A program made the translations under genes and the position numbers. A stretch of 24,307 nucleotides of DNA from a virus: positions 1 to 24,307 of IMG/VR virus record IMGVR_UViG_3300035070_003874, one strand, 5' to 3'. Positions 1,338 to 22,820 of the stretch are shown in pieces (position 1 is the stretch's first letter; each line of letters begins with the position of its first letter). The notes beneath the pieces are model-generated. The model was given only the letters and a program-made list of their open reading frames with translations, had not been told where the DNA came from and did no database searches.

Positions 1338-1353
1338 AGATCTCCTATGATCT
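1338..1353 (-). promoter_or_regulatory. Ribosome binding site in the loop of a hairpin
   Basis: On the coding strand the leader reads AGATC, then ATAGGA, then GATCT. The outer five bases pair perfectly and the AGGA core lies in the six-base loop. The hairpin ends just before the ATG at 1335. The same architecture, stem-loop(AGGA)-stem, is seen at 10883-10897, 14149-14163 and 20584-20600. Function as a translational control element is inferred. Confidence 0.4.
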
Positions 1354-3404: not shown

Positions 3405-5809
3405 CAATCTCCCCAAACGTACGGATCATCCGACCCGAGAAGTACAGGCGAAACGGATCCATCTGCGAGCGCCAAAAATACACCTTGCCGATCCGACGCC
3501 GTGGAGGCCGAGGAAAAGGCCGACCACGGACGGAGGCGAACGAGATCGCCCGCTGCCACCCAAGCAGCGGGCGTGGTGGTCATCGTCAGAAAACGCGAGC
3601 CGTAGTTGATCGAACCGATCTCTAGCGTGTCTTTTTGCACCGTCCCACCGAGGCTTGACTCATCCCAAACGGTCACCAAGTCGCCGACTTGGAAGTAGTC
3701 GACATCCTCGTCGCCGTCCGTCCCCGAACCCAAGATCGGGATCGATTGCGTCCGTGCGACGGGGTTTGCGAAGAGGGATGTTGCGCCCGCATAGATCTTG
3801 ATCTTGTCGTCCACGACCTCTTCGACAAGGCCGCAAGGCGCGATCAATCCGAGGTCTGCGGGCGTGTCTCGATACAGTAGTTCGAGTTCGACAAAGCCGC
3901 TTGTGTCGCTTGGTGCGACCCGCGTGATTTGGTAGGTCGCTGCGATATCGCGGGTGCCTCGATGGTTGATCAGGTTCGGCAAGATCAGCGTGACGATCTG
4001 TCCCGGTCGATATGTTACCGAGGGAGAGATGCGCGCTTTGTATGTTACATAGGCCGCTTCAAAGGTGCGCTGCCGCAGGTAGCCGCGAAGGATTTGAAGG
4101 AGCGCAACCTCCGTCTGGGCCGAGCGCAAACCGCGATCAAGGATCTCGATCTCGCGAGCCTCGTGGATATCCACACTGTCAGCGACCTCGACGATCAACC
4201 GAGACCGAGGCTCCCCATCCAAACCGAGATCCATCGCGACCGTTGCGCGGTTTCGGATGCGGTCGAGGCTGGTATCTGCACTCCAACCTTCGCCGCGCTT
4301 TCGCCACGACTCCGACAGAGTGTGAGCGACCTCGTTGTCAGGGTAGATATCCTCGATGATCGTCGCGGTCAGCTTGCCCTCTTCGCTCCAAAAGGCCGCG
4401 AGGTTGAGGGTGATCGAAAGCCAGCGAATCAGATCCGAGATGCTAAGATCTTCCTCGCAAACGTAGTAGCGAGGCTGCGATCTTCCCGCAGCAACGACCG
4501 CCAAAAAGCTGTCCACATCAATAAAATCTTCGGGCAGACCCAAGCCCCAACCTTCGGGCAGCACATCAAACGCACCCGACAAAGGGCCGTCGTCGCCGTC
4601 CCCATCGACCGAGCAAAGGCAAGGCAGCAAGACCTCCGCGATGGCGTCACCTTCCAAGATCCGCATCTCCGTGATCTCTGCGTCTTTGTCGTGGGCGGTT
4701 GCAGCACCCCCGCCCAACACCCCTCGCTTGACTTGTTGATAAGGCGCGATGGCTGTGTAGTTCATCACGAGCAAGTCGCCCGAACTGTGGGAATAATCGC
4801 TTGATGCGATGGTCACTTCCCAGTTGTCGCGGTCGAGCTCCAGCACGGTCACGGTTGCCTTGGTGGTGGTCTTGGTCGAGTCCATCAGATCGACTTGATC
4901 GCCCACAGCGAGGTCGCCCGGAGGCGGAACCAAGAGCGCCAACACATCCGAACTCACCGAGTCGATGGTTGCTTGCAAGATCGGCACTGTCGAGTTCAAA
5001 GAGGTGAACCAGTTTCCGATTTCAAGGATCTCGTCGTCGATGCGGATATACCCGCGTCCATAGCGGTTCGAGTTCTCGCCCGGAGGAAGTACTTCTTTGT
5101 CGTCGAGCGAGATCTTTAGCGACTCCACGCTTGCGCCGATGGGTCGAGCAAGTCGGCCCTTGAACCATGCGGCACCCGCGAACACAGCTTGATCGCGGAG
5201 CTTGCTTTGGCCGCTTGCTACTTGGATTGCGAACCCATCACTCGACTCAGTAACGCGGTCGATAAACCCGACGTATCGGGTGATTGCGGTCGAGGTCGAA
5301 GGCGTCCATGCGTCTTGCCACGAGATCCAGATCTGCCGACCGAGGAGGGTTGGGTTGTAGCTGAACACCCTCGCTGTGTCGCGGTGAGCCTGTGCGCGTG
5401 TTCCAAGTTGGGCACGTACACAGCCTGTTAAAGTGTTGGTGGACTTGCCGCTGTAGGTGATGGCTTCGCGTCCGATCCAGACGCGACCGATCGAAGGCAG
5501 CGAGGAGGCGTTGACCACATCGATACTTGTCGCGGCCTTGCTGATCTCTCCGTCGAGTCGGGTAGTTACTCCGCTTGCCGCCTCTTTTTGGGCGGTGAAC
5601 AGATCGGAGAGATCCCCTTTGACTTTGATCGTTGAACCGCCCGCATCCATCTCGCCCGTATCGGGGTCTTGCGAGATCAGCATCCCGCTCGGAAACTCCC
5701 GTGGATCGAGCGCAACGCGCACTTCGGACGCATGCCGAGCATCAAGTCGAGCGTCGGTTGCAAGGGCCGTGTTGCACCCCTCGATGTCGATGATTACGCC
5801 GTAAGACAT
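3404..5809 (-). CDS. Baseplate hub / tail-associated protein-like large tail-tip protein
   Basis: The protein has 801 residues and starts with ATG directly after the TAA of the upstream gene. Only a distant TTGGAG precedes it, so coupling is likely. It contains several short beta repeats of the phage hub and fibre kind: ISKAATSIDVVNASSLP and VWIGREAITYSG near residues 90-120, TRYVGFIDRVTES near 175, GDLAVGDQVDLMDS near 300, and FQVGDLVTVWDESS near 720. The middle (SWRKRGEGWSADTSLDRIRN to SPSVTYRPGQIVTLILP) resembles the tail hub domain that assembles below the tube. By size and order after tape measure and distal-tail genes, the hub/Tal slot is the best fit. No lysozyme or peptidase motif was recognised. 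Confidence 0.65.
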   Translation of the reverse strand: MSYGVIIDIEGCNTALATDARLDARHASEVRVALDPREFPSGMLISQDPDTGEMDAGGSTIKVKGDLSDLFTAQKEAASGVTTRLDGEISKAATSIDVVNASSLPSIGRVWIGREAITYSGKSTNTLTGCVRAQLGTRAQAHRDTARVFSYNPTLLGRQIWISWQDAWTPSTSTAITRYVGFIDRVTESSDGFAIQVASGQSKLRDQAVFAGAAWFKGRLARPIGASVESLKISLDDKEVLPPGENSNRYGRGYIRIDDEILEIGNWFTSLNSTVPILQATIDSVSSDVLALLVPPPGDLAVGDQVDLMDSTKTTTKATVTVLELDRDNWEVTIASSDYSHSSGDLLVMNYTAIAPYQQVKRGVLGGGAATAHDKDAEITEMRILEGDAIAEVLLPCLCSVDGDGDDGPLSGAFDVLPEGWGLGLPEDFIDVDSFLAVVAAGRSQPRYYVCEEDLSISDLIRWLSITLNLAAFWSEEGKLTATIIEDIYPDNEVAHTLSESWRKRGEGWSADTSLDRIRNRATVAMDLGLDGEPRSRLIVEVADSVDIHEAREIEILDRGLRSAQTEVALLQILRGYLRQRTFEAAYVTYKARISPSVTYRPGQIVTLILPNLINHRGTRDIAATYQITRVAPSDTSGFVELELLYRDTPADLGLIAPCGLVEEVVDDKIKIYAGATSLFANPVARTQSIPILGSGTDGDEDVDYFQVGDLVTVWDESSLGGTVQKDTLEIGSINYGSRFLTMTTTPAAWVAAGDLVRLRPWSAFSSASTASDRQGVFLALADGSVSPVLLGSDDPYVWGD

Positions 5810-9800: not shown

Positions 9801-9962
9801 TGCCGCCTCTCCAAAAGCCTTCTCGCCCTTCTGGGCTGCGGTCTCTAGCTTCTTTCCAGACTGCTGTCCAGCCGCGTCCACAGCGGCAGTGATGGCCGTG
9901 GTCGCGGTCGCAGTGTCGCCCGCAACGAGCGAGATCGGCAGTTCCATGTTGAAGCGAGACAT
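6891..9962 (-). CDS. Tail tape measure protein
   Basis: The protein has 1023 residues and is the longest gene in the window. Start ATG at 9962 has AAGGA upstream and lies six bases after the chaperone stop. The N-terminal 350 residues are alanine-rich helices (TATATTAITAAVDAAGQQ). Residues about 350-850 are long heptad-like coiled coils rich in Q, E, K and R (for example QQTISRMAEARAMIRNFQQ and QVEQLNLKKEVTA-like stretches). Near 870-985 there are hydrophobic segments (AAAFASTFAAVAVGKFALG, LTAASIALFALAGTLKGAG). The protein sets tail length and is ejected with DNA (established). At about 0.15 nm per residue the tail would be near 150 nm (inference). Position directly after the G/GT chaperone pair is diagnostic. 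Confidence 0.93.
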   Translation of the reverse strand: MSRFNMELPISLVAGDTATATTAITAAVDAAGQQSGKKLETAAQKGEKAFGEAAKGIASKWVAVLDAIGKADQGIRAFTARAQQAFQALVGLADQIQAKFDTEGRAKWFGATTADAEMLRTKLDDVKSGFEAMALASELKAGGLKSSDIALFADAINAVAALSGETKASVEQALKAGELSDKMINVLGKSRAEIDAIVAQAQVAAGGRNLQPLERTQAILKALGPDLSRIHANLGDIGRSNPFIVLQKDLQSTWESVSVKLKPSLDDLVRIIQQNKDGLIKFFSGAAEAAAVLGGVVAKVFSKIADALGWYYGKIGAIAKASVSLIHSGQRAEVERIRKWQEEQLKLEMARQGVASVEKIRGAAETAKKVGMVQLTESQKAAKARAAQEKLEARQQTISRMAEARAMIRNFQQLALEATASLGGPVSGALSAFKDSFEKFKVLGTLYRGTLTKLADASDEEIKRLREAGKITDSQAKAVRLFQTYLKAGELDLREYLGNQRAVNVQLGAQQSLLQANAAIAQNEVEQLNLKKEVTAAITSLTRTISLLEGKDDVVSRRKLGILRSTLAQYKEISTERQQILNLALATAKIDKQFEQIRAVRAMKREIEDVKVSTKQLSLELQALLSKEDAVLAAQTQQAQQSQQIVQARQELLRRAFDTLEQIEEKEKKVAIAGQRPENIALLNAQIEKLREVKQQLSDQAAIQNRVKALTEGLAKVDVDVAKRRQATDRERAQQDLIVSRLQLQQQILGLQSKLQGTETASLAVGQAKVAIDRKIFDNQQRLLEIEQKRRILAANPQAVTALDKEAASLKAQNSELQKQLTLQDQLLVTQQRLFTVGGSMLSQLQAQAVDAAQKIGQAAASAGMGLVNSLGGALSGVFEALVTADKDLAKNFGKTILNALGDMAAAFASTFAAVAVGKFALGDIAGGAGLTAASIALFALAGTLKGAGALVGPQPQQSSAASSAPSRTSLPGQEQTRKETVRETYVIVPSDMLGDPLRQARSLSRFLSESERRTLGTRRRLG

Positions 9963-9968
9963 TGGTCG

Positions 9969-10360
9969 TCAGTCCTTGAGTTTTGCGCGCTCTTTGTTGT
10001 GAACGTGCGTTTGCACTTCAGCGCGAAGTGCGGAGATGTGAGCCATCGTTTGGCAGTAAAGCGCGGGCTGGTCGGTGAGCGCGCCTTGCTGCGGCAGCAC
10101 GCCCTTTTCGTAGGCATCGAATAGCTGAATAGCTACCTGCACCGCTTCGTCATTTGAGCGCGATAGCGGGCAGGTTTCAAAGGTCTCACCGCCAACCTGA
10201 TAGACCATCAAGTCGCCAGCAAGCTCGTCAACAAACGGACGGTCACATCCCCAAATTTCCCGAAGCAAGGGGTCTGCGCGGCACTGTCGGCAGTTGTTTG
10301 GATAGCCGTGTTCCTCCACGGCGACCCACCACCATGCCGCAACATGCAGACCCTCTAGGA
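9969..10360 (-). CDS. Tail assembly chaperone T extension, made by -1 frameshift
   Basis: This frame lies -1 relative to the G-like gene and encodes about 130 residues after the slippery site, so the GT fusion would be about 302 residues. The section starts LLEGLHVAAWWWVAV and has no convincing start codon or ribosome binding site of its own. It carries four spaced cysteines in a C-x2-C-x11-C-x24-C arrangement (NNCRQC, GCD, CPLSR), a possible zinc site. The segment KGVLPQQGALTDQPALYCQ resembles a motif I know from genes just upstream of tape measure genes in many siphoviruses. Its role is to bind the tape measure and recruit tube subunits (known for lambda GT). The stop is six bases before the tape measure ATG. 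Confidence 0.75.
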
Positions 10361-10876
10361 GTTTGGGGAGGCTTGCCCCTGCTTGATCTGAAGATAGCAC
10401 CCAAGCTCGGTCAGGATCTGTTCGAGTTCGGGATGTGCCTTCAAGCAAGCGTCGGTCACGCGAGAGATCCGACGCCACGTTTCCAACTCGATCAGCCCCT
10501 TCTCACTGGGGCAATCGTCCACACAGAAGCGGCCAAGGTGAAACCAAAACTCGTTGAGCGCCAACGCGCTTCCCGCGAAGCCTTCCATCCCCGCAAGGAT
10601 GGGCATCTTCTTGTCGTCGAAGTCGATCCCCGCTGCCGCCAAAGCAAGCGAAAACTCCCGCTCGGAGGGGGCGTGCGCGATGAAGGTTGCAGGTTCGCAT
10701 CCTTCCTTGAGTGATAACTTGGCTTGCCAGTTGTCGCGCTCGGAGTCGAACCGTTCGGGGGTGATCAGGTCGTTGAGTCCATCGCGAAAGTTGGGCCAGT
10801 CGATGGCCGCGTCATACTTCGAGACGAACGAGATCGGCGTACCTTTGAGGGCTTTGGCTGTAGTGAAGCGAGACAT
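10355..10876 (-). CDS. Tail assembly chaperone G-like protein
   Basis: The protein has 173 residues, starting MSRFTTAKALKG and ending QGQASPNS. It sits between the tail tube gene and the tape measure gene, the usual place of the lambda G-type chaperone. The body is acidic and helical at the C terminus (LETWRRISRVTDACLKAHPELEQ). The last sense codons are TCC CCA AAC TCC TAG, which contain a canonical slippery heptamer, so a fraction of ribosomes should shift -1 and make a G-T fusion. G coats the tape measure protein during tail assembly (established for lambda). The leader includes the 20-bp repeat at 10878-10897. Confidence 0.8.
   Translation of the reverse strand: MSRFTTAKALKGTPISFVSKYDAAIDWPNFRDGLNDLITPERFDSERDNWQAKLSLKEGCEPATFIAHAPSEREFSLALAAAGIDFDDKKMPILAGMEGFAGSALALNEFWFHLGRFCVDDCPSEKGLIELETWRRISRVTDACLKAHPELEQILTELGCYLQIKQGQASPNS
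10361..10367 (-). promoter_or_regulatory. Programmed -1 ribosomal frameshift site CCCAAAC
   Basis: On the coding strand the zero frame reads TCC CCA AAC TCC TAG, so C CCA AAC fits X XXY YYZ exactly. Slipping one base back joins the G-like frame to the T frame one codon before the G stop. Both tRNAs can re-pair (CCA to CCC, AAC to AAA). A GC-rich 6-bp hairpin (GCCGTG/CACGGC, plus-strand 10305-10322) lies about 38 bases downstream, which is farther than usual, so it may not be the stimulator. Confidence 0.85.
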
Positions 10877-10877
10877 C

Positions 10878-10897
10878 TTGCTCTCCTAACGAGCGGA
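10878..10897 (-). repeat. 20-bp leader repeat with hairpin-displayed RBS, copy 1
   Basis: TTGCTCTCCTAACGAGCGGA on the plus strand is identical to 14144-14163. On the coding strand it contains GCTC, GTTAGGA, GAGC: a four-base-pair stem with the AGGA ribosome binding core in the loop, just before the ATG of the G-like gene at 10876. The shared sequence continues weakly on the 5' side (AACCTCCGC here, AACCTTCCGC at the other copy). Confidence 0.75.
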
Positions 10898-10930
10898 GGT
10901 TTAGGGTTTTCGAGAAGGGGTGCGGAGCGC

Positions 10931-12295
10931 TTAAAAGCGCGCAAGCACCATCTTCTCGGAGGCGTTCGGGTCGGTGTGGTCGTCGCGTTGTTGGAACTCG
11001 CCTTCGAGGTAGTGGATGTTGAAGGCATCGCCGTGTGTGATCGATTTGAACTGAGCGCGTGCGTCCACGGCACAGGCTGCGCCTGCCGCGTTGCCCGCTT
11101 GGATCAGCATTTGCGCGATGGTTCCGGTCAGTTCCCACGTTTCCTTCGCGGTCTTGATCGTGTTGCGGAACTTGGCTTTGCCCGTCGATACGCGGTCAAC
11201 GACCTTGGCGACGTGCGCCTCGGTGTCTTTGACCACCTCGACCGTGTGGCCAAAGTCAAACTCGAACGACTGGACGCCAAGAGCCGTGCCGCCAAAGTCA
11301 CAAGCCCCCGCTTTGACGGGGATTTTGCGACCCGCCGGAAGCTTCTGCGACATCGCGAACGAGTCGACATATTCGTAGCTCGACCCTTGCCCTTCGAGGT
11401 TCAACATCACGGCGTTTCCGAACTCTGCGCTCCCTTTGACGTTGAAGCGAACCCCGTTCAAGATCGCCAACTGATCGTCCATCAGAACGAGGACTTGCCA
11501 CGCATCGTGACCATCTTCGACCGACTTGTAGCTGACCGCAGCGTACACTTCTGTATTGTCGGCGGGTGCGGCAGATAGGGCTTTGTGGAGCGTGATGTTG
11601 TCGGGCGTGCTAACCGTATCGACTGCGGTCACGCGGCGAACTTGGTTGTTGATCATCACCAAGTCACCGACCGCGAACGCGCTTGCATCGTCCACATCGA
11701 TGACTGTGGTCGTCGAAGATCCGCCGCTCACCTGTGTCCCCTCGCCCACGGTGCGGGTTCCGAGAACGCCCTTGAGAAGTTGGTCGAGCGCGTCCAAAGC
11801 GTCGGTCGATCCTTGCGCTTGGGTGCGGGTGGTTTCGAGTCCAGCGAGTTCAACCGCGAACGAGATCGAGCAACCTTCGAGTCCCTTCTGGGCGCTCGTT
11901 CGTTCGTAGGTCAGGGTTTCCACGTTGCTCTCGATGTCCTCGGGAGCGGTGGTCAGTGAGGGTTGTTCGGCGCGGACTTGAAGATATACGTCGAAGGTGT
12001 CACCCGAAACAGGCGTGCCTGCGAGGCTTGCGAACGTGAAAGTCCCCGTCGCACCCGCGTAGTCGGTGACTGTGTAGGACTTGCCGCGCAAGGCGGCAGT
12101 GGTCGTGTTGTCGCGGAATCGGACGGTGTATCCGTTATAGGCGTCGTTGTAGTCCGACGACGAAGACAGGGAAGAGTCGACAACGGTCGTGCTGGTTCCG
12201 CCCGTTGCGGTGCGTCTGAAATCGGTTGTGCCCTCAACGATCTGTTTGAACAGAGCGATGAGGCCGATCATCTTTCGTTTGAAACTGCCGCTCAT
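10931..12295 (-). CDS. Major tail tube protein
   Basis: The protein has 454 residues beginning MSGSFKRKMIGLIALFKQ. Tube proteins are often 150-350 residues, so this one is long. Two serine/threonine-rich inserts appear to account for the extra length: GGTSTTVVDSSLSSSSDYND to GDTFDVYLQ near residues 32-105, and GGSSTTTVIDVDDASAFAVG to NTEVYAAVSY near 190-255. Both resemble small beta add-on domains common in phage virion proteins. Strands such as AWQVLVLMDDQLAILNGV and ETWELTGTIAQM belong to the presumed tube core. Its place between the tail terminator and the G/GT pair is the normal one for the tube gene. It starts as ATGA overlap with the 51-residue gene upstream. Confidence 0.75.
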   Translation of the reverse strand: MSGSFKRKMIGLIALFKQIVEGTTDFRRTATGGTSTTVVDSSLSSSSDYNDAYNGYTVRFRDNTTTAALRGKSYTVTDYAGATGTFTFASLAGTPVSGDTFDVYLQVRAEQPSLTTAPEDIESNVETLTYERTSAQKGLEGCSISFAVELAGLETTRTQAQGSTDALDALDQLLKGVLGTRTVGEGTQVSGGSSTTTVIDVDDASAFAVGDLVMINNQVRRVTAVDTVSTPDNITLHKALSAAPADNTEVYAAVSYKSVEDGHDAWQVLVLMDDQLAILNGVRFNVKGSAEFGNAVMLNLEGQGSSYEYVDSFAMSQKLPAGRKIPVKAGACDFGGTALGVQSFEFDFGHTVEVVKDTEAHVAKVVDRVSTGKAKFRNTIKTAKETWELTGTIAQMLIQAGNAAGAACAVDARAQFKSITHGDAFNIHYLEGEFQQRDDHTDPNASEKMVLARF

Positions 12296-12447
12296 TCGGG
12301 CATCTCCTCTTGGTTGTCAGCCTCTTCGCGGCTGCGATCTTCGGGTTCGAGGTCAGGTTCGAGGATGGGTTCGGGTTCTTTGGGAGGTTGGGGCTTGCTG
12401 CTTGTTCGGTGGATGGTCTGCTGTTTTCGATCTGGTTGGCCCATCAT
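12292..12447 (-). CDS. Acidic 51-residue protein between tail terminator and tail tube
   Basis: The protein starts MMGQPDRKQQTIHRTSSKPQ and ends in a proline/glutamate-rich tail (EPEPILEPDLEPEDRSREEA). Evidence that it is real: its ATG overlaps the terminator gene's TGA as ATGA, its own stop overlaps the tube gene's ATG as ATGA, and GAGGA precedes it. The second ATG at 12444 is an alternative start. It is basic at the N terminus, strongly acidic at the C terminus and probably disordered. No family is recognised. It may only keep ribosomes moving between two structural genes, or be a small tail assembly factor. Confidence 0.55.
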   Translation of the reverse strand: MMGQPDRKQQTIHRTSSKPQPPKEPEPILEPDLEPEDRSREEADNQEEMPE

Positions 12448-12875
12448 TCCTCCCGATACTGCGCGACTAGGCGAAGGCTGGTGACCAACTGTTGTCCGTC
12501 GCGGGTGAAGCTGGTTGCACGACCTTGCTCGAAGATGTTGCAGATCTCCGAGAAGGTCGGCCAGATCAGATGCTTTGCGATGTTGTGAAGGTGGACGCCA
12601 AGCCGCTTGTCTGCGGCTGTTCGGTCGTCTTGGTTCTTGATCTCGGTCGCCACTTGAATCTCCACAACGATCACAAAGTCGATTGGATCGAGGCAAAGTT
12701 CTTGGTAGGGGCTTGGCCCCTCGATGATCTTGAGGTGGTAGCCGTCATCGAAAGTCCCGCGAGCAGGGGCCTCTTCAAGGTTATCTTGGTCAAGCTGGTA
12801 CCGATATCGTTGGAGTCCGATATCGGTACCAGTCAGCACCGTTTCGATTCGCTCCAGCGCAGTGGTTAGGCTCAT
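12444..12875 (-). CDS. Tail terminator-like protein
   Basis: The protein has 143 residues starting MSLTTALERIETVLTGTDIG. The ATG at 12875 overlaps the upstream TGA as ATGA; an upstream in-frame start would intrude on that gene. The layout (N-terminal helix, FVIVVEIQVATEIKNQ as a central strand, RLGVHLHNIAKHL as a helix, then LVTSLRLVAQYREE as a final strand) fits the alpha/beta fold of lambda U-like terminators, which cap the tube and join it to the head. Position directly before the tube block supports this. The gene contains a perfect 15-bp inverted repeat near its 5' end (12795-12832). Confidence 0.65.
   Translation of the reverse strand: MSLTTALERIETVLTGTDIGLQRYRYQLDQDNLEEAPARGTFDDGYHLKIIEGPSPYQELCLDPIDFVIVVEIQVATEIKNQDDRTAADKRLGVHLHNIAKHLIWPTFSEICNIFEQGRATSFTRDGQQLVTSLRLVAQYREE
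12795..12832. repeat. Perfect 15-bp inverted repeat with 8-nt loop inside tail terminator gene
   Basis: The left arm CTGGTACCGATATCG (12795-12809) and the right arm CGATATCGGTACCAG (12818-12832) are exact reverse complements, separated by TTGGAGTC. Each arm holds two small palindromes, GGTACC and GATATC. On the coding strand it encodes the region around TGTDIGLQRYRYQ of the terminator protein. No T-run follows on the coding strand, so it is not a standard intrinsic terminator. Confidence 0.9.
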
Positions 12876-13570
12876 TTCAAGAACCTCATGCGCGGCCAAG
12901 TTCGCGACTGCTGCTCAGAAGACACCACGTTGTCGTCGTAGTCGGTCGAGTTGAGGTTGTTCAACGCTCTCGACAAAGCCCGACGGTACTCTTTTTCGTA
13001 GTGGTCAGCCTTCCAAGCGGCCTCGCTTTCCGCGCCCAACGTGCCGAACCGTTCGCGACGATAAAACATCGCGAGAACAAGATAGATGTGACAAAGTCGG
13101 AACTGCGATCCGCTCGCTGTGATCGCAGGATTCGCTTTCAGGACAGCCGAAACCTCCTGTGCGATCTCGCCCCACGCTTCCCTTCGGAGGTCTTTGAGCG
13201 TTGAGACGCCAAGTTTGGAAGTCACCGAAGACTCGATCCGAGCGACATCCGCGTCGGTGACTTCGGACGCGAAGTCACGCAAAGTTACATCAAAGAAGTC
13301 GTCTCGGATGTACTCGATCCCACCCGCCGTCAGCGTCCAACGAACCCGAAAACTCCGATCCACTGGATAGGTAGAATCCTCCCAGCCTGCCGACGGAGTG
13401 AACGTCGCGAGACCGACCGAACGAGTCACATCGACCGCCGAATCTGCGCGAAGCTCCGACCCTGCGGGAGAGTAGATCGCACACGAAGCGGCAGTCAAAG
13501 TGACCTCGTCAAAGTCAACAACGAGGCGGTACGAAATCGGATCTTTGGAGCTTTGGCGAACAGTCTTCAT
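12872..13570 (-). CDS. Head-tail connector-like protein
   Basis: The protein has 232 residues, starting MKTVRQSSKDPISYRLVVDF, with an ATGA overlap to the upstream gene. The N-terminal 110 residues are beta-rich (SFRVRWTLTAGGIEYIRDDF) and look like an immunoglobulin-like or neck domain. The C-terminal half is helical (LRREAWGEIAQEVSAVLKA, LCHIYLVLAMFYRRERFG, AAWKADHYEKEYRRALSRAL) and resembles the helical adaptor class (gp6/gp15-like) of head-tail connectors. Such proteins bind the portal and prepare the head for tail docking. The two-domain composition is unusual for a connector and the assignment depends on context. Confidence 0.5.
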   Translation of the reverse strand: MKTVRQSSKDPISYRLVVDFDEVTLTAASCAIYSPAGSELRADSAVDVTRSVGLATFTPSAGWEDSTYPVDRSFRVRWTLTAGGIEYIRDDFFDVTLRDFASEVTDADVARIESSVTSKLGVSTLKDLRREAWGEIAQEVSAVLKANPAITASGSQFRLCHIYLVLAMFYRRERFGTLGAESEAAWKADHYEKEYRRALSRALNNLNSTDYDDNVVSSEQQSRTWPRMRFLK

Positions 13571-14139
13571 TTGCGTTCCACATACTCGATCAGCCCGCAC
13601 AACGAGGGCAATCGGCCGACCGGCTTGCCACCTGCGACCGAGTCGCCATAGCGCGCCCAAAGAAAGATCCCTTGGCGTGCGGTCACTTCGACCGTTTTGC
13701 CCACCACAAACCGCGTTCGCGTCGCACCGCGATCTGATCCGTTTTCCAACTCAAACCCGCACGGCTGGTCTTTGTCGTCCCATGCCACGTCTTCCGGCCA
13801 GTTCGTGACAGCTTTGGCCGCGATCCATCCTTGGATCATTTTCTCGGCGCGCTCGGACAAACGGAGAACAAAGCGCGCTCCATCGTCTTGCGCGAGCAAG
13901 TCGACGATGCGTTGTCGGATTCCCACAGGCACGGAGAAAATGTCGGGCAAATCGACTTGATCGGCGATCTTGTCGTAGGCATGGGGCCGTTGCTTTTCGG
14001 GCATGTTGGCCGCCTCGATGATCCATGCGGTAAGCTGGTTTGCTTCTTCGCTTGGTTTGTCGGCGTGAACCTTGGACTCTCCGCCCTTTCGGGTGGGTGG
14101 TCGCAAGACTTCGGTTTGCTTTGGGATGGGTCGGTTCAT
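13567..14139 (-). CDS. Structural-module protein, unknown, head-tail junction region
   Basis: The protein has 190 residues. The N-terminal 40 are charged and low in hydrophobics (RPPTRKGGESKVHADKPSEE). A helix-rich centre follows (ANQLTAWIIEAANMPEKQ, PVGIRQRIVDLLAQDDG, LSERAEKMIQGWIAAKAV), then a beta C terminus (TRFVVGKTVEVTARQGIFLW). No family is recognised. It lies between the decoration-like and connector-like genes. Its leader carries the 20-bp repeat shared with the G-like gene, so both may be expressed in the same way. A capsid or connector accessory protein is a guess. Confidence 0.5.
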   Translation of the reverse strand: MNRPIPKQTEVLRPPTRKGGESKVHADKPSEEANQLTAWIIEAANMPEKQRPHAYDKIADQVDLPDIFSVPVGIRQRIVDLLAQDDGARFVLRLSERAEKMIQGWIAAKAVTNWPEDVAWDDKDQPCGFELENGSDRGATRTRFVVGKTVEVTARQGIFLWARYGDSVAGGKPVGRLPSLCGLIEYVERK

Positions 14140-14143
14140 GTCA

Positions 14144-14163
14144 TTGCTCTCCTAACGAGCGGA
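14144..14163 (-). repeat. 20-bp leader repeat with hairpin-displayed RBS, copy 2
   Basis: TTGCTCTCCTAACGAGCGGA is identical to 10878-10897, 3.3 kb away, and again lies just before a start codon (ATG at 14139). The coding-strand hairpin GCTC / GAGC presents GTTAGGA in the loop. Direct repetition of a ribosome binding region before two unrelated genes argues for a functional leader or a recombination joint. Confidence 0.75.
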
Positions 14164-14191
14164 AGGTTGGGCGAAAAGATCAGCCTACGGA

Positions 14192-14566
14192 CTAGGCCGA
14201 CGCGGGTGTTCCGGGGTTGGCATTGGTTTTGCCGATGATGCGAAGACCCAAGGTCACTGCGCTGAGGTCGGTCGTGTTGGGCACTTGCGTACCCGCAGCG
14301 ACGTAGATCAAGAGCTTGTCGTTGGCCGCGTCGTACTTGACGGAGTAGCCCGCGCCACCGCCGTCATAGCAATCCACGGCGACGACATCGCCTTGGTAAT
14401 CAAGGCCCGCATCGGCGGCGGAAGACTCGGAGACAGCCGCATCGAGGTCGAACTTTTGGCCGCCAGTCGCATAGGTGCCCGGTACCCATTCATAAACCAT
14501 CGTGTCGAGAACACCGCTGTTTTCGTGGTCGCGGGAGTCGAACACTTTCGTGAAACGTGTTGCCAT
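14192..14566 (-). CDS. Probable capsid decoration or head structural protein
   Basis: The protein has 124 residues. The start ATG at 14566 is chosen because GGAGGG lies at good distance; a longer in-frame reading upstream has no ribosome binding site. The sequence is strand-rich and glycine/alanine-rich (GDVVAVDCYDGGGAGYSVKY, LLIYVAAGTQVPN, VTLGLRIIGKTNANPG). It directly follows the major capsid gene, as capsid decoration proteins commonly do, and its size fits. No defining motif is seen. A head fibre or a second minor capsid protein is possible. Confidence 0.5.
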   Translation of the reverse strand: MATRFTKVFDSRDHENSGVLDTMVYEWVPGTYATGGQKFDLDAAVSESSAADAGLDYQGDVVAVDCYDGGGAGYSVKYDAANDKLLIYVAAGTQVPNTTDLSAVTLGLRIIGKTNANPGTPASA

Positions 14567-14572
14567 ATCGGA

Positions 14573-14586
14573 ACCCTCCAAGGGGT
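14573..14586 (-). promoter_or_regulatory. Short hairpin around the RBS of the decoration-like gene
   Basis: The coding strand reads ACCC, CTTGGA, GGGT just before the ATG at 14566. Four base pairs close a six-base loop, and the GGAGGG Shine-Dalgarno lies partly in the loop and partly in the stem. The stem is short, so this could be chance; it is listed because similar leaders occur at three or four other genes. Confidence 0.3.
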
Positions 14587-14652
14587 GGGAAGTTTGGAAA
14601 AGGGGGGCGACACAAGGGCCGCTCAATGCTCAAAGATCAGCGAGGAGCAGGA

Positions 14653-15687
14653 TCAGGCAGGGTCGGCGTAGGTCGTGGAGAGGGTGTGGTAAGAGCCTTG
14701 GGCGAAGGGTTTGCGGCAGATGATTTGGTAGTAGATCACCATTTGTGCCGACGTCCAGTCGCCGCTTCGACCGAGTTCGGAGATCGCGAACGGGTAACCG
14801 TTGACGTTCATCGAGGCGAGTCGAGGGTTGCGATCGGCGGTCTCGTTGATCGCTTGGGTGAGAACTTTGATGCGCCAGTCGGGGAGATGGAGGAAGTAGA
14901 TCTTGTCCGTCGGGAATCCGGGGATCTCGATGTAAGGAATCCCCTCGAACTGGACAGACGAAAACTGAACATCAGCCACGGAGAAGGGCGCGGTTTGGAC
15001 GTAGCCGTCGAGGAGCTCCATCATCTTCGAGCGCTGGAGCGCAGACCCGACCAACACCAACATTGCGGGATCAACGCCTTGATCGTCATAGAGGGAGTCG
15101 CGGATCTCGCGAAGTCCCGAGCGCTTGACAGCGGCAGACGAACCCGATTTCAGAACGCTTTGGAGCCAAGAGTTTGTGGAGCGAGAGATCGAACCGACCG
15201 AGCCAGAGGTGTTGACCCAATACGGCAAGCCCTTTCCGTCTTTGTCGGTCGAACCCGCACCGCTTTGAAGAGTGGACTCCATCAGCGAGAAGAGTTCTTT
15301 GGATCCGTTTTCGAGGCGATGTTGCCACAAGGTTTGAGCGGTCGCTCCTTGGAGCTCGCCAGCACCGGAACGGGCGTTGTCGAAGTGTCGCACTTTGATA
15401 ACGGCACGCGCTTTTGCCCACGGAATATCGGCCTCTGCGACCGACTCTTGAGATGCTGCGGGAGCGATCTCGTCGGGGTCGAAGTGCGCTGCGGTGACGC
15501 CCGAACCATACTCGAAAACGAGCCGTTCGGCATACTCGCCGCCGCCCAAAAACTCGACACCACCGCCACGAGCGACGAGGGAGAGTAGGGATTTTTCTTG
15601 GCCAAGTTCGACACCGGGACGCTTCAAAGCGTTGATGAAGACTTGGCTTTGGTCTTTCAGAAGACCCGATGGGATCGTGATCGCCAT
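14653..15687 (-). CDS. Major capsid protein, HK97-like fold
   Basis: The protein has 344 residues starting MAITIPSGLLKDQSQVFIN. Features typical of a major capsid protein are a beta region (VEFLGGGEYAERLVFEYG, then PWAKARAVIKVRHFDN), a long helix near 110-130 (TLWQHRLENGSKELFSLMES), PYWVNTSG near 155, a domain with SGLREIRDSLYDDQG and LVLVGSALQRSKMMELLD, and a C-terminal segment IPYIEIPGFPTDKIYFLHLP. It follows the probable scaffold gene and precedes the decoration-like gene, the common order. Start and CGGAGAAA ribosome binding site are clear. No separate protease gene is seen nearby, consistent with a capsid built on a scaffold without maturation cleavage (inference). Confidence 0.8.
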   Translation of the reverse strand: MAITIPSGLLKDQSQVFINALKRPGVELGQEKSLLSLVARGGGVEFLGGGEYAERLVFEYGSGVTAAHFDPDEIAPAASQESVAEADIPWAKARAVIKVRHFDNARSGAGELQGATAQTLWQHRLENGSKELFSLMESTLQSGAGSTDKDGKGLPYWVNTSGSVGSISRSTNSWLQSVLKSGSSAAVKRSGLREIRDSLYDDQGVDPAMLVLVGSALQRSKMMELLDGYVQTAPFSVADVQFSSVQFEGIPYIEIPGFPTDKIYFLHLPDWRIKVLTQAINETADRNPRLASMNVNGYPFAISELGRSGDWTSAQMVIYYQIICRKPFAQGSYHTLSTTYADPA

Positions 15688-15750
15688 GATATTTTCTCCG
15701 ATTGGTGCGCGGCCTCACAGCGCGGGAAGGTTGGAAGGTTGAAAGTTTGC
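15688..15750 (-). promoter_or_regulatory. Leader of the major capsid gene
   Basis: This 63-bp gap precedes the capsid ATG. On the coding strand it has a tandem 8-base repeat, CAACCTTC CAACCTTC, then GCGCTGTGAGGCCGCGC, whose GCGC ends can pair, then CGGAGAAAATATC before the start. The AACCTTCC motif recurs in the leader at 14140-14191. No -10/-35 pair is convincing. It may be a processing or translation-control region for the most expressed gene. Confidence 0.3.
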
Positions 15751-16284
15751 TTATGCGTACGCGCCGTTTGCGGCCTTGGATCGGATGTCGTCGAGGGTCA
15801 GCGCGCCCGTTTGGGTGGTGCCCCCTGCTTGCGCGGTGTTGACGGCGGGAGGTTGAACTGTTGATCCGCTAGTTCCCATGCTGCGGGCAAGAACGACCAA
15901 GTCGCGCATCTTGATCGGATCACCTCCCGACTTCTCCGCGATCATTGTTCGCGCAGCTTCGGGCAGATCGTTCAGTTGAAGTTGGAGCAGCTCGATCGCG
16001 AGCGCTTTGTATTGCTCCTTGTCGGGGTCGGACATGGGGGGAGTGACCACCACAGGAGGCGGATTTGGCGCAGCGGGTGGCGGTGGTTCGCTCGGTGGCG
16101 CGGGCGTTTCGGATGCGGGAGGCGGATTTGGCGCAGCGGGTGGCGGTGGGGCTTCGCCCCCCTCCTTCGCCTTCGCCCCAAGGTCGGCCAGTTCCTTCTT
16201 GAGAGCTTCGAGATCGCCCTCGCCTTCGCCCTTTTCGATGGCCGCGATCTGCTTCTTGAGTTCTTCGATCTTGTACATGGTCAT
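15751..16284 (-). CDS. Probable capsid scaffolding protein
   Basis: The protein has 177 residues. Residues 1-40 form a charged helix or coiled coil (KIEELKKQIAAIEKGEGE). Residues 43-80 are a proline-rich linker with two copies of PPPPAAPNPPP. Residues 85-135 are helical (KEQYKALAIELLQLQLND, LPEAARTMIAEKSGG). The end is small-residue-rich. A short, helical, low-complexity protein directly before the major capsid gene is the usual scaffold profile. Start: ATG at 16284 overlaps the upstream stop, but the ATG at 16278 has the better spacing from AGAGG and gives MYKIEELKK; the protein would then be 175 residues. Confidence 0.6.
   Translation of the reverse strand: MTMYKIEELKKQIAAIEKGEGEGDLEALKKELADLGAKAKEGGEAPPPPAAPNPPPASETPAPPSEPPPPAAPNPPPVVVTPPMSDPDKEQYKALAIELLQLQLNDLPEAARTMIAEKSGGDPIKMRDLVVLARSMGTSGSTVQPPAVNTAQAGGTTQTGALTLDDIRSKAANGAYA
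16055..16149. repeat. Direct repeat of 32 bp, period 63 bp, in scaffold linker
   Basis: The 32-bp unit at 16055-16086 is repeated exactly at 16118-16149. It begins GGAGGCGGATTTGGCGCAGC and ends GGTGGCGGTGG. The period is 63 bp (21 codons), so the reading frame is preserved and the protein repeats its proline-rich linker. Exact nucleotide identity implies a recent duplication or gene-conversion event. Confidence 0.9.
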
Positions 16285-16706
16285 CCTCTTCTCAGTCGGT
16301 CTCGCAGCCAGCGCGAGAGCTTTAGAAAATCATCCTCGCTCACCCCAAACCACGGAGCGATCTCGTGGTTGGCGCGAGCTTTGATGCGTTGAAGTGGGTC
16401 GGTGAATTTGATCACGATCCGCATCTCGCCGTTCGGAACGGAGAACATCCCGCGCAGCATGTGGCCGCGAAATGTGAGGTTTCGGCGGGTCGCGTTGCGG
16501 CCCTTCTTTTGCCGATACTTCGCATAGGCGGGAGTGTATCTCGGCATCTGGCGGTCGTAGATGTCGCGACCTGCCTCAACGCGGAGCTTGATGTTGGCGA
16601 CCTGTAGTTGTCCGAGACCCTGTACGATGGTACGGGCTTCCTCTCGCAAAAACAGTTCTAGCGCTTGCTGTGTGTTCGCAGGTACGGAGAACTTTGCGCG
16701 AAACAT
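16281..16706 (-). CDS. Phage virion morphogenesis-like protein (gpG/gpS family)
   Basis: The protein has 141 residues. The start at the ATG at 16706 is preferred because AGGAAAC lies upstream and the previous gene stops one base earlier. A long N-terminal helix (ALELFLREEARTIVQGLGQL) is followed by DIYDRQMPRYTPAYAKYRQKKG and a basic region, TRRNLTFRGHMLRGMF, then strands and ANHEIAPWFGVSEDDFLKL. The motif 'P-x-Y-A-x-x-K ... LxxxG-x-M-L-x-S/G' and the 'PWFG-S' ending are typical of Mu gpG / phage tail completion S-like proteins (PF05069 type). It likely acts at the head-tail junction, although its place before the scaffold gene is early for that. Confidence 0.6.
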   Translation of the reverse strand: MFRAKFSVPANTQQALELFLREEARTIVQGLGQLQVANIKLRVEAGRDIYDRQMPRYTPAYAKYRQKKGRNATRRNLTFRGHMLRGMFSVPNGEMRIVIKFTDPLQRIKARANHEIAPWFGVSEDDFLKLSRWLRDRLRRG

Positions 16707-16707
16707 T

Positions 16708-17448
16708 TCAGTTTCCTGCCGCGCCGTTGGCGCGTGAAATGTCGGAGTCATCGGCAAATCGGTAGCCACCCGCACGAACCGCGCTCGAAGGCATGGGCGT
16801 CCAACTGTGTCGGCAGTTCCATCCGCCGCCGTTCGTCATCACGGGCAGACCTTGGCCGTTGTCGAGGCGCTTGATCTGCCGCTCGGTGAAGGCGAGTCCG
16901 ATCAGTTCGGCGCAAAATCCCCGCGTCACGCCGTCGTCTGGGCCTTGGTACACATAGACCGTTTCGTCATCCGCAGCGCCTTGACTTGCCGCTGCAAGGA
17001 CAACTTGACGCTGCGCTTGGGCGAGGATCGTGTTGCCGATGGTGACTGCTTGCCCGCGTGCGGTCTGCGTGATGCGCTGCACTTCGGATGCGATTTGTTC
17101 CGTAGAGTAGGGCGTTTCCGATACGCGACGAATCAGGTCAGAGAGCTGGTTTTGGGTGCCCTTCAACACGCCCGACATCTCGACCGTGTAGGTCGAGAGG
17201 GTTCGTTTGACGAGCGCTTTGGCTTGTTTGTCGTCTGCAAACGGGTCGGATGGAGCGGCCAGTTTGGAGACCATCTCAGAGATCACGGACTCGGAGGCAA
17301 GGTCACCTCCGCCGATCTCCACCCACACGCGACGCATCTCCGTGGCGGTCAGCTTCTTGTTGCGAAGATAGCTTCGGTTGCGCTCGAACCACCGTAATAG
17401 TTTGTCGTACAGGTTCGGCGTGCTCTTTGCGAGCAAATCCTCAAACAC
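16708..17448 (-). CDS. Head morphogenesis protein (Mu gpF / SPP1 gp7-like)
   Basis: The protein has 246 residues and starts with GTG at 17448; GGAG seven bases upstream and a three-base gap to the portal stop support it. The N-terminal two thirds are helical (LLRWFERNRSYLRNKKLT, VKRTLSTYTVEMSGVLKGTQ). The C-terminal domain is diagnostic: DETVYVYQGPDDGVTRGFCA, then AELIGLAFTERQI, then TNGGGWNCRHSWTPMP. The 'C-x-E/A ... GGWNCRHxWxP' pattern is the phage Mu F-like domain. These minor head proteins associate with the portal inside the procapsid and travel with the DNA in some phages (known for SPP1 gp7). Confidence 0.85.
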   Translation of the reverse strand: MFEDLLAKSTPNLYDKLLRWFERNRSYLRNKKLTATEMRRVWVEIGGGDLASESVISEMVSKLAAPSDPFADDKQAKALVKRTLSTYTVEMSGVLKGTQNQLSDLIRRVSETPYSTEQIASEVQRITQTARGQAVTIGNTILAQAQRQVVLAAASQGAADDETVYVYQGPDDGVTRGFCAELIGLAFTERQIKRLDNGQGLPVMTNGGGWNCRHSWTPMPSSAVRAGGYRFADDSDISRANGAAGN

Positions 17449-17451
17449 CGA

Positions 17452-18840
17452 TTACTCCGCAACTTCGGACGGTGGAACCCCACCGCTAAGGCGGTCGGCT
17501 TGCGCTCTTGCAAGCGCCGCCTCCGCCGCCTTTTCCTCGGCCTCTTCGCGACTAACGTCGTCGAGTGCCATGATCGCTTCGGTCGGTGTGGCGAGACCTG
17601 CGGAGATCTTCGAGCGCCAATAATCGAGCGCGTCCACCATGCCCATTCCAGGGCCGATCTCGGCATAGTCCAGCGTCACTTCGCCCGGTGGAAGGGGTGC
17701 GTGGTGCCTCAACCCGACACGATCTTTCTCGACTGCAACGACTTCGCGGGCCACATCATACAAAGCGTCTTCATTGATCCGCCACATGGTGCGGGCATCT
17801 TCGCGACGCTCTTCGAGGTCGGTCATTTGGAGGCGTCGGTCGATCCCCGAGGTCGCCGTGGTAAACCCTCGGATCAGTTCGGGTCGGATGCCTTCGAGGT
17901 TCAAGGGGGTGTCGAGAAGTTTCAAGACAGCCTCGACCTGCTTGTCGATCTCCACCTCGAAATTGTGGACCTCGATGGTTGCGTTTGGGCCGACCACCCA
18001 AGGATTTGCGGGGTCATGGATCATCGCGGGATCAAAATCCTTGCCCGGAATCCCCTTGAACGCGACTTGTCTGTGTGACGCCCAACGGAGGACATGGCGA
18101 AGATGTGTGAAGCCGATAGCGGCCTCGACGGTTGCGCGGTAAAGTCCGTGTGATGCCCGTGGCTCTAGGATTTTCTCGGCTTCCCAACACGTCGGCCACT
18201 CGGCATGGGCGAGGATAAACGGGACGATCTTGTAGGGGTTGACGTTGCTCTCGTTTCCTTGGATGCGGAGCGGAGTCGAGAGCATCTGATCCATGTAGAT
18301 CCCGTGATGTTCGGGCGTCCAGACCACATAGCGGATGAAGTTGGTTCGCTGAACGCGCTCAACGATCTGGTACATGATCGCGTCGAGGCGCATCGGATTG
18401 TCGCGACTTGGGATCACTACCGTCCACTCGGGACTGAGGATCTGGACGGATAGCCCGTCTTTTGCGAGGACAGGTCGGAGGATGGTTTGGCGCAAAGCCC
18501 ACGTCAACTTACAGGCTTGGGCGAGGCCGAGGTTGATGCGCCAAGAGTCGTACAAGGTCGGACAATCGGCACCGTTCAGCTTGCGACTTGGAGCGCGGTC
18601 ATAGATCGCACCGAGCTTCCCACATGCCCAACGGAACGCATTGACCGAGGTATCTGCAACCGCGAGCAGCATCTCGAAAGTGTGTGGATATCGCTTTTCG
18701 ATCTCGTTCGCGAGGATGTGCGTGCCGTAAAAATCGCGCCACTCGTTTCGATACACCCCGCCCATCCGGCTGGTCAGGTCGCGTCGCTCCGTTGAGCAAC
18801 TCCAAAGATCAGCGAGGGTGTCGAGTGTGTCGCGAAGCAT
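17452..18840 (-). CDS. Portal protein
   Basis: The protein has 462 residues, usual for the SPP1/HK97-like portal group. It overlaps the terminase gene by 32 bases. Portal-like features are the early helix TSRMGGVYRNEWRDFYG, VIPSRDNPMRLDAIMYQIVE near 145, the strand pair NFIRYVVWTPEHHGIYM near 170, KIVPFILAHAEWP near 205, then a long helical stem and wing region (HNFEVEIDKQVEAVLKLLD, ATSGIDRRLQMTDLEERRE near 320). The C-terminal 60 residues are charged helices (REEAEEKAAEAALARAQAD). Location directly after TerL and before the Mu-F-like gene is diagnostic. The portal is the 12-fold ring for DNA entry and the head-tail junction. Confidence 0.88.
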   Translation of the reverse strand: MLRDTLDTLADLWSCSTERRDLTSRMGGVYRNEWRDFYGTHILANEIEKRYPHTFEMLLAVADTSVNAFRWACGKLGAIYDRAPSRKLNGADCPTLYDSWRINLGLAQACKLTWALRQTILRPVLAKDGLSVQILSPEWTVVIPSRDNPMRLDAIMYQIVERVQRTNFIRYVVWTPEHHGIYMDQMLSTPLRIQGNESNVNPYKIVPFILAHAEWPTCWEAEKILEPRASHGLYRATVEAAIGFTHLRHVLRWASHRQVAFKGIPGKDFDPAMIHDPANPWVVGPNATIEVHNFEVEIDKQVEAVLKLLDTPLNLEGIRPELIRGFTTATSGIDRRLQMTDLEERREDARTMWRINEDALYDVAREVVAVEKDRVGLRHHAPLPPGEVTLDYAEIGPGMGMVDALDYWRSKISAGLATPTEAIMALDDVSREEAEEKAAEAALARAQADRLSGGVPPSEVAE

Positions 18841-20161
18841 TGATTGTTTGTCCGTATTTGAACAGCCCGCCGATGGGCTGTGTTGGTTTGCAGGTGCCGT
18901 TTACGAGGTAGCGAAGGGCGTCCATTTGGTGCCCATAGATCGAGTCTTTGGCGGGTTCGGGCGGGTTCCCTTTCCACGGGTATCTTTGGATCGACGCGAC
19001 AAAGCCGCGCTCCTCTTCGAGCGTGCGAACCCGTCGCTGTAGGTGATCCGCGATGTACAGCCGCCGTTGACCCGAAGCGTTGAGGATCTGGGAGCGCACC
19101 CGCTCCACACCTGCCGCTCGTTCACGATCATCGGTCGCATGAGAAAACGTCGGATCCAGTTTCGCATCTCGGAGGATATCGACTGAACGCTTTCCATCCT
19201 CTTGGCTCCGAGCGTTTCCTGCAGGATCACAGTGAAGCTCTCCCAAGACCCAGATCCGACGGTCTGCAAGTCCTCGAATGAGAACAGACAACTCAGTGGT
19301 AGGGGTGTGGTTGGGCACGAGTTCGTCGAGGATGTGTAAACAATTATCATGGGCATGTAGTCGGCACCTCTCGAAGTGTTGCGCGAACACCACAGCGGGG
19401 CGAACATAACCGAAGTCGATCCCGCCGATTACTGGCCGTCTTGGGTCGTAAAGTTCGGCGTAAGGTTGGAGCATGACCGCGAGGTCAAGCTCTTTTCCAT
19501 ACACCGTACCGCCGACGTTGATCCACTCGGCAAGAACGTACTGCCGAAACAGTTCTGGACTGAGCGAGGCTTGCAACCCCTCGATGTACCCGTCTTGGAG
19601 GTTTACTTGGTTCTCAAAGGTTGTGCCGTGGACGACGGGGATCTCGGTATCTCGGAACTCGTCGGCCATCCACGAGCCAGAGTCGAGCGTCGAAGTGAAC
19701 CCAATCAGCGGGCTTGGTGCACCTTTTGTTCGGACGCGAGCACAGAAAAAGTCGTAGGCTTCGCGTTTCCAAAACCTGATCTCATCTCCAAGTGCCCAAG
19801 CCACATCGCGCCCCTCCATCGAAGAGGGTTTGTCGGCAGAGCCGTAGTAGATGATCGATCCGTTGGTGACGAAGATCGCCTTGTCTGCGATGTTTTCGCC
19901 CGCGTAGATTCCCGCTTGTTTGAGGAACTTTTTGATGCGCGGTCGGATCTCATTTTTGACGTGAGCGTAAACGTGGCTCACCACCAACCCCGCCAGTCCA
20001 GCGTTCTGGATGGCGAGCATGACCGCTCGAAACGCAATCGCCTCGGTCTTTCCGACACCGACGCCAGCGCCGAGCAGCACTTTTCTGTGCTGCCGCGTGG
20101 CGCGGTGCCAGCGCATTTGAGCCGAGTTCGGCTTGTGTCTAATCTGTGTCGTCGGGTTCAT
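18809..20161 (-). CDS. terL: Terminase large subunit
   Basis: The protein has 450 residues from the ATG at 20161, which lies inside the end of terS (23-base overlap); a TTG 42 bases earlier is unlikely. ATPase: Walker A GAGVGVGKTE at residues 31-40 and Walker B AWALGDEI with D126/E127; the conserved region continues with GFTSTLDSGSWMADEF near 154-169. RNase H-like nuclease: D249 in GGIDFGYVRPAVVF, D312 in LHCDPAGNARSQ, and D414 in DSIYGHQMDALRYL, the three usual acidic positions. It packages DNA into the procapsid and cuts the concatemer. All key residues are present, so the enzyme appears functional. Confidence 0.95.
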   Translation of the reverse strand: MNPTTQIRHKPNSAQMRWHRATRQHRKVLLGAGVGVGKTEAIAFRAVMLAIQNAGLAGLVVSHVYAHVKNEIRPRIKKFLKQAGIYAGENIADKAIFVTNGSIIYYGSADKPSSMEGRDVAWALGDEIRFWKREAYDFFCARVRTKGAPSPLIGFTSTLDSGSWMADEFRDTEIPVVHGTTFENQVNLQDGYIEGLQASLSPELFRQYVLAEWINVGGTVYGKELDLAVMLQPYAELYDPRRPVIGGIDFGYVRPAVVFAQHFERCRLHAHDNCLHILDELVPNHTPTTELSVLIRGLADRRIWVLGELHCDPAGNARSQEDGKRSVDILRDAKLDPTFSHATDDRERAAGVERVRSQILNASGQRRLYIADHLQRRVRTLEEERGFVASIQRYPWKGNPPEPAKDSIYGHQMDALRYLVNGTCKPTQPIGGLFKYGQTINASRHTRHPR

Positions 20162-20579
20162 CGGCAGGATCGACGACGGTGACGCGAACAGGCTTGGGAT
20201 CAAAGACGGGTTGAGGTGTTGGTTTGACGTAGCCTTTGAAGCGCTCTAACCACCACGCGACCCGTTGCCAGCGCTCTCCTTCGCCATCCAAAAGCTGCTC
20301 AATCCGCGCTGCTTCGCCTTCGATCTCAGCCCTTTTTAGAGCGCGGAAAAACCCTGCAACTTCAGCGCTTACTCCATCTGGTGCCTCCATCGCTCTCCAG
20401 TTCTCAAGCGTTCCCCTGTCAATCCCCGCAAGAGCCGCGACCTTTTCGTACGCCATTCCAAGTCGCATTCCGCGAAGAACCGCAGCCCTGATCTCTGGGT
20501 CAAGGTAGAGCGGCGGCCTTCCTCCAAGGTTCTTGACTGGTTCGGTCGGCTTCTTTTTTCGGTTGCGCTTGCGTGACAT
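20139..20579 (-). CDS. terS: Terminase small subunit
   Basis: The protein has 146 residues. The N terminus is very basic (SRKRNRKKKP). A helix-turn-helix follows: LGGRPPLYLDPEIRAAV, then RLGMAYEKVAALAGIDRGTL, with NWRAME as the end of the recognition helix, about residues 18-65. Next come an acidic helix (FFRALKRAEIEGEAARIEQ) for oligomerisation, WQRVAWWLERFKGY, and a proline-rich acidic tail. This is the usual arrangement of TerS proteins that recognise the packaging site and feed DNA to TerL. Its stop lies inside terL. AGGAG in a hairpin loop precedes the ATG. Confidence 0.88.
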   Translation of the reverse strand: MSRKRNRKKKPTEPVKNLGGRPPLYLDPEIRAAVLRGMRLGMAYEKVAALAGIDRGTLENWRAMEAPDGVSAEVAGFFRALKRAEIEGEAARIEQLLDGEGERWQRVAWWLERFKGYVKPTPQPVFDPKPVRVTVVDPADEPDDTD

Positions 20580-20631
20580 GGGTGACTCTCCTCGCGAGTC
20601 GAAAATGTTTCTACCCTATAAGGGCGCATTT
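20580..20631 (-). promoter_or_regulatory. terS leader with hairpin-displayed RBS
   Basis: The 52-bp gap holds a 5-bp hairpin at 20584-20600: on the coding strand GACTC, GCGAGGA, GAGTC, with the AGGA core in a seven-base loop. This repeats the layout of the leaders at 10883-10897 and 14149-14163 (shared core CTCG, two variable bases, AGGAGAG). Farther upstream is a short dyad, CCCT TAT AGGG, in an AT-rich patch, a possible operator or promoter part. The packaging and structural genes begin here, so a late promoter would fit, but I cannot assign -10/-35 boxes. Confidence 0.4.
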
Positions 20632-22694: not shown

Positions 22695-22706
22695 GACAAC
22701 CCTCTC

Positions 22707-22788
22707 TGATCAACCTCTGTAGGTTGGACAAGGTTGATCACAGGTTGAACACCCTTGGGAGAGTAGGTCTGTCCAACCTGATCAACCT
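22707..22788. repeat. Iteron cluster I (six copies of AGGTTGNNCA)
   Basis: Exact copies lie at 22707-22716 (-), 22721-22730 (+), 22731-22740 (+), 22742-22751 (+), 22770-22779 (-) and 22779-22788 (-). The variable pair is AT, GA, AT, AA, and, read on the minus strand, GA and AT. Two copies are directly adjacent and two overlap by one base. The whole cluster is in the gap between vapE and the exonuclease gene. Candidate origin or initiator-binding array. Confidence 0.9.
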
Positions 22789-22820
22789 CTGTGGTGAAAT
22801 CTTAGAAATCAAAATCAGGG
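22789..22820. other. AT-rich spacer between iteron clusters
   Basis: The stretch includes GTGGTGAAATCTTAGAAATC and AAAATCAGG and covers the vapE stop codon. It is clearly AT-richer than its surroundings. A possible DNA-unwinding element for an origin, by analogy to origins of pathogenicity islands in which two iteron sets flank an AT-rich region. Confidence 0.5.

Follow-up and report, generated by a model that had tools for sequence, protein, structure and literature searches.

What does a long, perfect inverted repeat do inside a phage structural gene, and how did it get there? The question is raised by positions 12795-12832 of a virus record that we analysed as one stretch of 24,307 bases (the window). 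The sequence-only reading had placed two exact 15-base arms around an 8-base loop within a tail terminator gene at this site, and the coordinates and pairing all hold, with 15 of 15 pairs complementary. The features concerned are as follows.

12872 to 13660, minus strand: 262-aa gene before the terminator gene, a head-tail connector by position only
12444 to 12875, minus strand: tail terminator gene, 143 aa, assigned from predicted fold and gene order
12818 to 12832, minus strand: 5' arm in gene sense, CGATATCGGTACCAG, encoding the end of T15, G16-T17-D18-I19 and the first base of G20
12810 to 12817, minus strand: loop of 8 nt, GACTCCAA on the sense strand, encoding the end of G20, L21 and Q22
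12795 to 12809, minus strand: 3' arm in gene sense, CTGGTACCGATATCG, encoding R23-Y24-R25-Y26-Q27
10931 to 12295, minus strand: 454-aa gene after the terminator gene, the tail tube by position only, with no family match

The repeat and the gene that carries it

Counted from the start codon (12875), the hairpin occupies +44 to +81, i.e., codons 15-27. No other perfect short-loop inverted repeat in the window is as long: with loops of at most 30 nt, the runners-up reach 11 bp. Each arm consists of two 6-bp palindromes, GGTACC and GATATC, and two of the window's three GGTACC sites sit in the arms. As RNA, the coding strand is predicted to form a hairpin of -32.1 kcal/mol (58 nt; z -8.2), a value equalled by 0 of 200 shuffles; as DNA, the predicted value is -17 kcal/mol (z -7.1). 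The stem forms an independent domain within the larger predicted fold. A second, short hairpin lies at 546-575 in the gene at 305-997, with 11-bp arms around CCGATATCGG, and its pairing extends to the centre if a 2-nt bulge is allowed.

The terminator gene runs from an ATG at 12875-12873, which shares bases with the upstream gene's stop codon, to a stop at 12444, and a Shine-Dalgarno-like GAGG precedes the ATG by ~8 nt. Searches of PHROGs and Pfam with the 143-aa protein returned no match, and no relevant sequence match was found in the PDB; tail terminators are too diverged for a missing family match to count against the assignment. A single-sequence AlphaFold2 model of modest confidence (pLDDT only 60) begins with a helix followed by three strands, then a second helix and two more strands. 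Structure comparison assigned it to the alpha/beta terminator fold. Foldseek ranked lambda gpU first among PDB entries (3fz2/3fzb/8iyd; E 1.5e-4), followed by other neck terminators, and the best rows from VIA-align were terminators of phages Mu, R4C, T1, T5, and others, with Z up to 9.9 over the full length of the model; residues 1-143 align with terminators of 117-176 residues. The order of genes (TerL, portal, capsid, small genes, terminator, 454-aa gene, overlapping chaperone pair, tape measure; several named by position only) puts the gene directly upstream of the presumed tube gene. The protein resembles known tail terminators (lambda gpU, T5 p142, phage Mu) in predicted fold and in gene position before the presumed tube gene, but differs in having no detectable sequence similarity to them. 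The model and the presumed gene order together support a tail terminator as the product, as had been proposed from the sequence. In the predicted fold, the repeat encodes residues 15-27, which form the end of helix 1, a turn, and strand 1.

Elsewhere in the window, two ORFs overlap at 10355-10478 (minus strand) before the tape measure gene. By a frame count made by hand, the slippery heptamer C CCA AAC at 10361-10367 would allow a -1 shift there like that of the lambda G/GT tail chaperones. Two adjacent tail-end ORFs at 1345-3416 have a common repeated motif, VGASSQ...HDH...GG...RG, which is probably a duplicated domain.

Chance, codons, and word usage

The repeat had also been described as very unlikely to arise by chance in a coding sequence. 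To put a number on this under coding constraint, synonymous codons were redrawn for the 26 coding frames of the window with their proteins kept. Perfect arms of at least 15 bp with loops of 3-20 nt appeared in 11 of 15,360 resampled copies (7e-4 per 24-kb window), and the probability for the exact site was 9.7e-6, a single codon combination yielding the pairing. An empirical background was taken from 967 other phage genes, each encoding at least 130 aa, in all 957 kb with duplicates masked. Long stems also occurred in short ORFs (91-103 aa) of this survey; these are probably intergenic stems under spurious ORFs, and the survey was therefore recounted on genes of at least 130 aa. Arms of at least 15 bp were observed 0 times among the 967 genes against 0.047 expected (~0.05 per Mb), and none had a perfect stem of even 14 bp or more. 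Arms of at least 11 bp were found 14 times against 6.5 expected, about a twofold excess. Inverted repeats in prokaryotic coding regions generally occur at normal frequency and are over-represented between genes (PMC4060949). For one window, then, the repeat is unusual at roughly one in a thousand, and the claim of improbability stands to that extent (7e-4; 0 in 957 kb); it weakens across a large scan, since such a repeat is likely to come up once many windows are screened, and any look-elsewhere correction is a guess.

The composition of the arms follows from the peptide. GGTACCGATATCG is G-T-D-I-(G) written in the codons of this genome, in which 87% of Ile codons are ATC. Near-copies of the arm were found in eight of 32 other phage records (VapE-bearing), above the reversed control, and all of these arm-like 15-mers encode GTDI, GTDL or DIGTG; because they do, the KpnI- and EcoRV-like words can be regarded as by-products of the peptide. 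Six of the nine arm-like matches sit in one homologous protein of 171-194 aa in the VapE-bearing phages, near residue 50-75. The arm was accordingly rejected as a site shared with these phages: the matches are peptide codons, in a protein location not equivalent to that of the hairpin. Likewise, CGATATCG was rejected as an octamer over-represented genome-wide (5 copies against 3.5 expected under a high-order Markov model). GATATC is not rare, with 14 sites in the genome against 10.1 expected under codon resampling, and neither it nor GGTACC is among the words clearly avoided or enriched under the codon null. As a class, 6-bp palindromes fall far short of expectation (169 against 400 +/- 19; all coding frames, synonymous resampling). 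CTCGAG, CCGCGG, and GCCGGC have zero copies in coding frames, while TCGCGA is enriched (26 against 15.7). The depletion suggests heavy restriction pressure in the host.

The repeat is probably an incidental coding palindrome in an ordinary tail terminator gene, with no dedicated role. The peptide TGTDIG-LQ-RYRYQ at the junction of helix 1 and strand 1 would by chance allow a coding in which two 15-mers are each other's complement. For the G-T-D-I-G arm, GGT ACC GAT ATC G would be the natural spelling in an ATC-preferring genome, and the other arm may have become the exact reverse complement of this one either by ordinary substitutions or by a template switch. We prefer as the last step a short template switch during replication, in which one arm would have been copied onto a similar sequence opposite; the symmetry would then persist as passenger sequence, its stem unwound by the elongating ribosome. 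We infer both this mutational route, with template switching as the likeliest last step in perfecting the arms, and the functionlessness of the repeat. Neither the reading frame nor the terminator fold as predicted is interrupted by it.

The perfecting of quasipalindromes by template switching, first observed in yeast CYC1 and phage T4 rIIB, has been established in E. coli thyA (PMC7202029); coding genes of yeast have been altered by it (PMC8604942), and a single event can create stems (PMC8794818). The mark of such events, a perfect or near-perfect inverted repeat with a short spacer, is present here (15 of 15 pairs, 8-nt spacer). The likeness to the thyA, rIIB, and CYC1 cases lies in a perfect short-spacer inverted repeat within a gene, and the reporter quasipalindromes, at 18 bp, are similar in size to the 15-bp phage repeat; the phage repeat differs in being known from one sequence, with no before-and-after pair (PMC7202029). 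Coding repeats in the mitochondria of Nematomorpha are comparable in that both perfect arms encode parts of a working protein, but those are many and up to 284 bp long, whereas the phage case is one repeat of 15 bp, near the reach of codon chance (PMC6649704). The twofold excess of repeats of at least 11 bp in phage genes fits a mild arm-homogenising process; selection could also cause it. As found, the repeat is a rare yet explicable palindrome of little significance. It offers a usable test case for the origin of long perfect stems in phage genes, since both their chance under codon constraint and their actual frequency in phage genes are now measured.

Possible roles of the hairpin and other origins

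Among the alternatives, the one that survives best is an mRNA hairpin acting in cis, by slowing ribosomes or by stabilising or cleaving the transcript, to set a low dose of terminator relative to tube protein. A tail has one terminator ring and many tube rings, so the copy numbers of the neighbouring products are expected to differ strongly, and the predicted stem is very stable (-32 kcal/mol, z -8.2) and early in the gene. However, it begins at +44, past the initiation footprint and out of the initiating ribosome's reach, and both the Shine-Dalgarno region and the ATG lie outside it. There is no adjacent terminator tract; Rfam gave no match at the gathering threshold, only matches at chance level (E above 3), and hence no family; and phage genes seldom have such stems (0 of 967 screened with at least 14 bp). 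We therefore regard a regulatory RNA as unlikely. The narrower proposal, that a hairpin at the start of the terminator coding region acts in this phage lineage as a translational or mRNA-processing brake on the terminator-to-tube ratio, seems to us distinctly doubtful. Nothing that we found supports the suggestion of the sequence-only reading that the hairpin lowers terminator expression or pauses polymerase. These tests of function lower the standing of specific roles, leaving some chance to a slowing or mRNA-stability effect.

Several defined kinds of RNA or repeat element were tried and rejected. An intrinsic transcription terminator would require a T run, and none follows the stem on either strand (CTTGACC, minus; TCAGCAC, plus); nor is the hairpin in the list returned by a terminator scan. 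A frameshift signal at the stem was dismissed upon reading the sequence by eye, with no slippery heptamer directly upstream. An REP or other mobile palindromic repeat was set aside on finding one copy in the record and no instance of the two-arm pattern in viral contigs. Intrinsic terminators and REP elements are stem-loops of comparable size, from which the phage hairpin differs in lacking a T tract, in not being intergenic, and in being single-copy.

Alternatively, the symmetric GGTACCGATATCG arms could be read at the DNA level, as an operator, a methylation site, or a nucleoprotein site. In favour of this are the two 6-bp palindromes that make up each arm, words of a kind that the genome strongly avoids (169 against 400), and the presence here of two of the window's three GGTACC sites. 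Under the codon null, however, neither GATATC nor GGTACC is clearly avoided or enriched. The gene around the site is a late structural one, and a scan of 9900-15800 gave no promoter-like match. Moreover, the arm has no second copy within the 24,307-base window, and 2.9 million viral contigs (IMG/VR) contain no instance of the two-arm hairpin pattern. A DNA-level site is thus improbable, and the operator or recombinase target that had been suggested finds no support.

Remnants of small inserted elements, an origin that had likewise been put forward, usually look like perfect short-spacer inverted repeats, as do recombinase or telomere-type targets. The model has no extra segment: it aligned to terminators over residues 1-143, and the arm codons are those of helix 1 and strand 1. 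A repeat that codes for the last part of helix 1, the turn, and strand 1 has not been added to the protein. The single copy in the record, the absence of the pattern from IMG/VR viral contigs, and the lack of a flanking repeat or of a recombinase beside the hairpin speak against this origin, which we consider very improbable. An artefact of assembly or amplification is conceivable for a metagenomic contig of an uncultivated virus with no second copy for comparison, but has an equally slight chance: artefactual inversions are usually longer and frame-breaking, and here the repeat leaves the frame open, with no part of the predicted fold missing.

Relatives and the end of the record

Whether selection maintains the stem would be visible in relatives. 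A stem preserved there through compensating changes would point towards an undescribed mechanism behind the ratios of tail proteins. Under neutrality, divergence at the level of the one close homologous fragment recovered (L003; 76.8% identity) would in all likelihood destroy a 30-base stem. Relatives were sought in IMG/VR viral contigs with the terminator, capsid, portal, aligned TerL, tube, and a hand-made TerL motif, in bacterial genome contigs with TerL, and in phages and plasmids by tblastn. No relative bearing the terminator gene was found in IMG/VR, bacterial genomes, phages, or plasmids. The fragment L003, of 4470 bp, matches positions 16169-20620 and ends at the equivalent of 16169, short of the terminator gene. 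As the sole known homologous fragment stops before this gene, the preferred reading leaves some room for a stem maintained by selection.

At the other end of the window, the record breaks off within a VapE-like primase gene (22802-24151), whose phage relatives are about 730-740 aa; the record is therefore a fragment. Around and inside the 3' end of this gene, at 22704-22960, AGGTTGATCA and AGGTTGGACA words in either orientation form an array, which includes three head-to-tail 9-mers, AGGTTGATC, at 22877-22904. The array is iteron-like and is possibly a replication or regulatory site.
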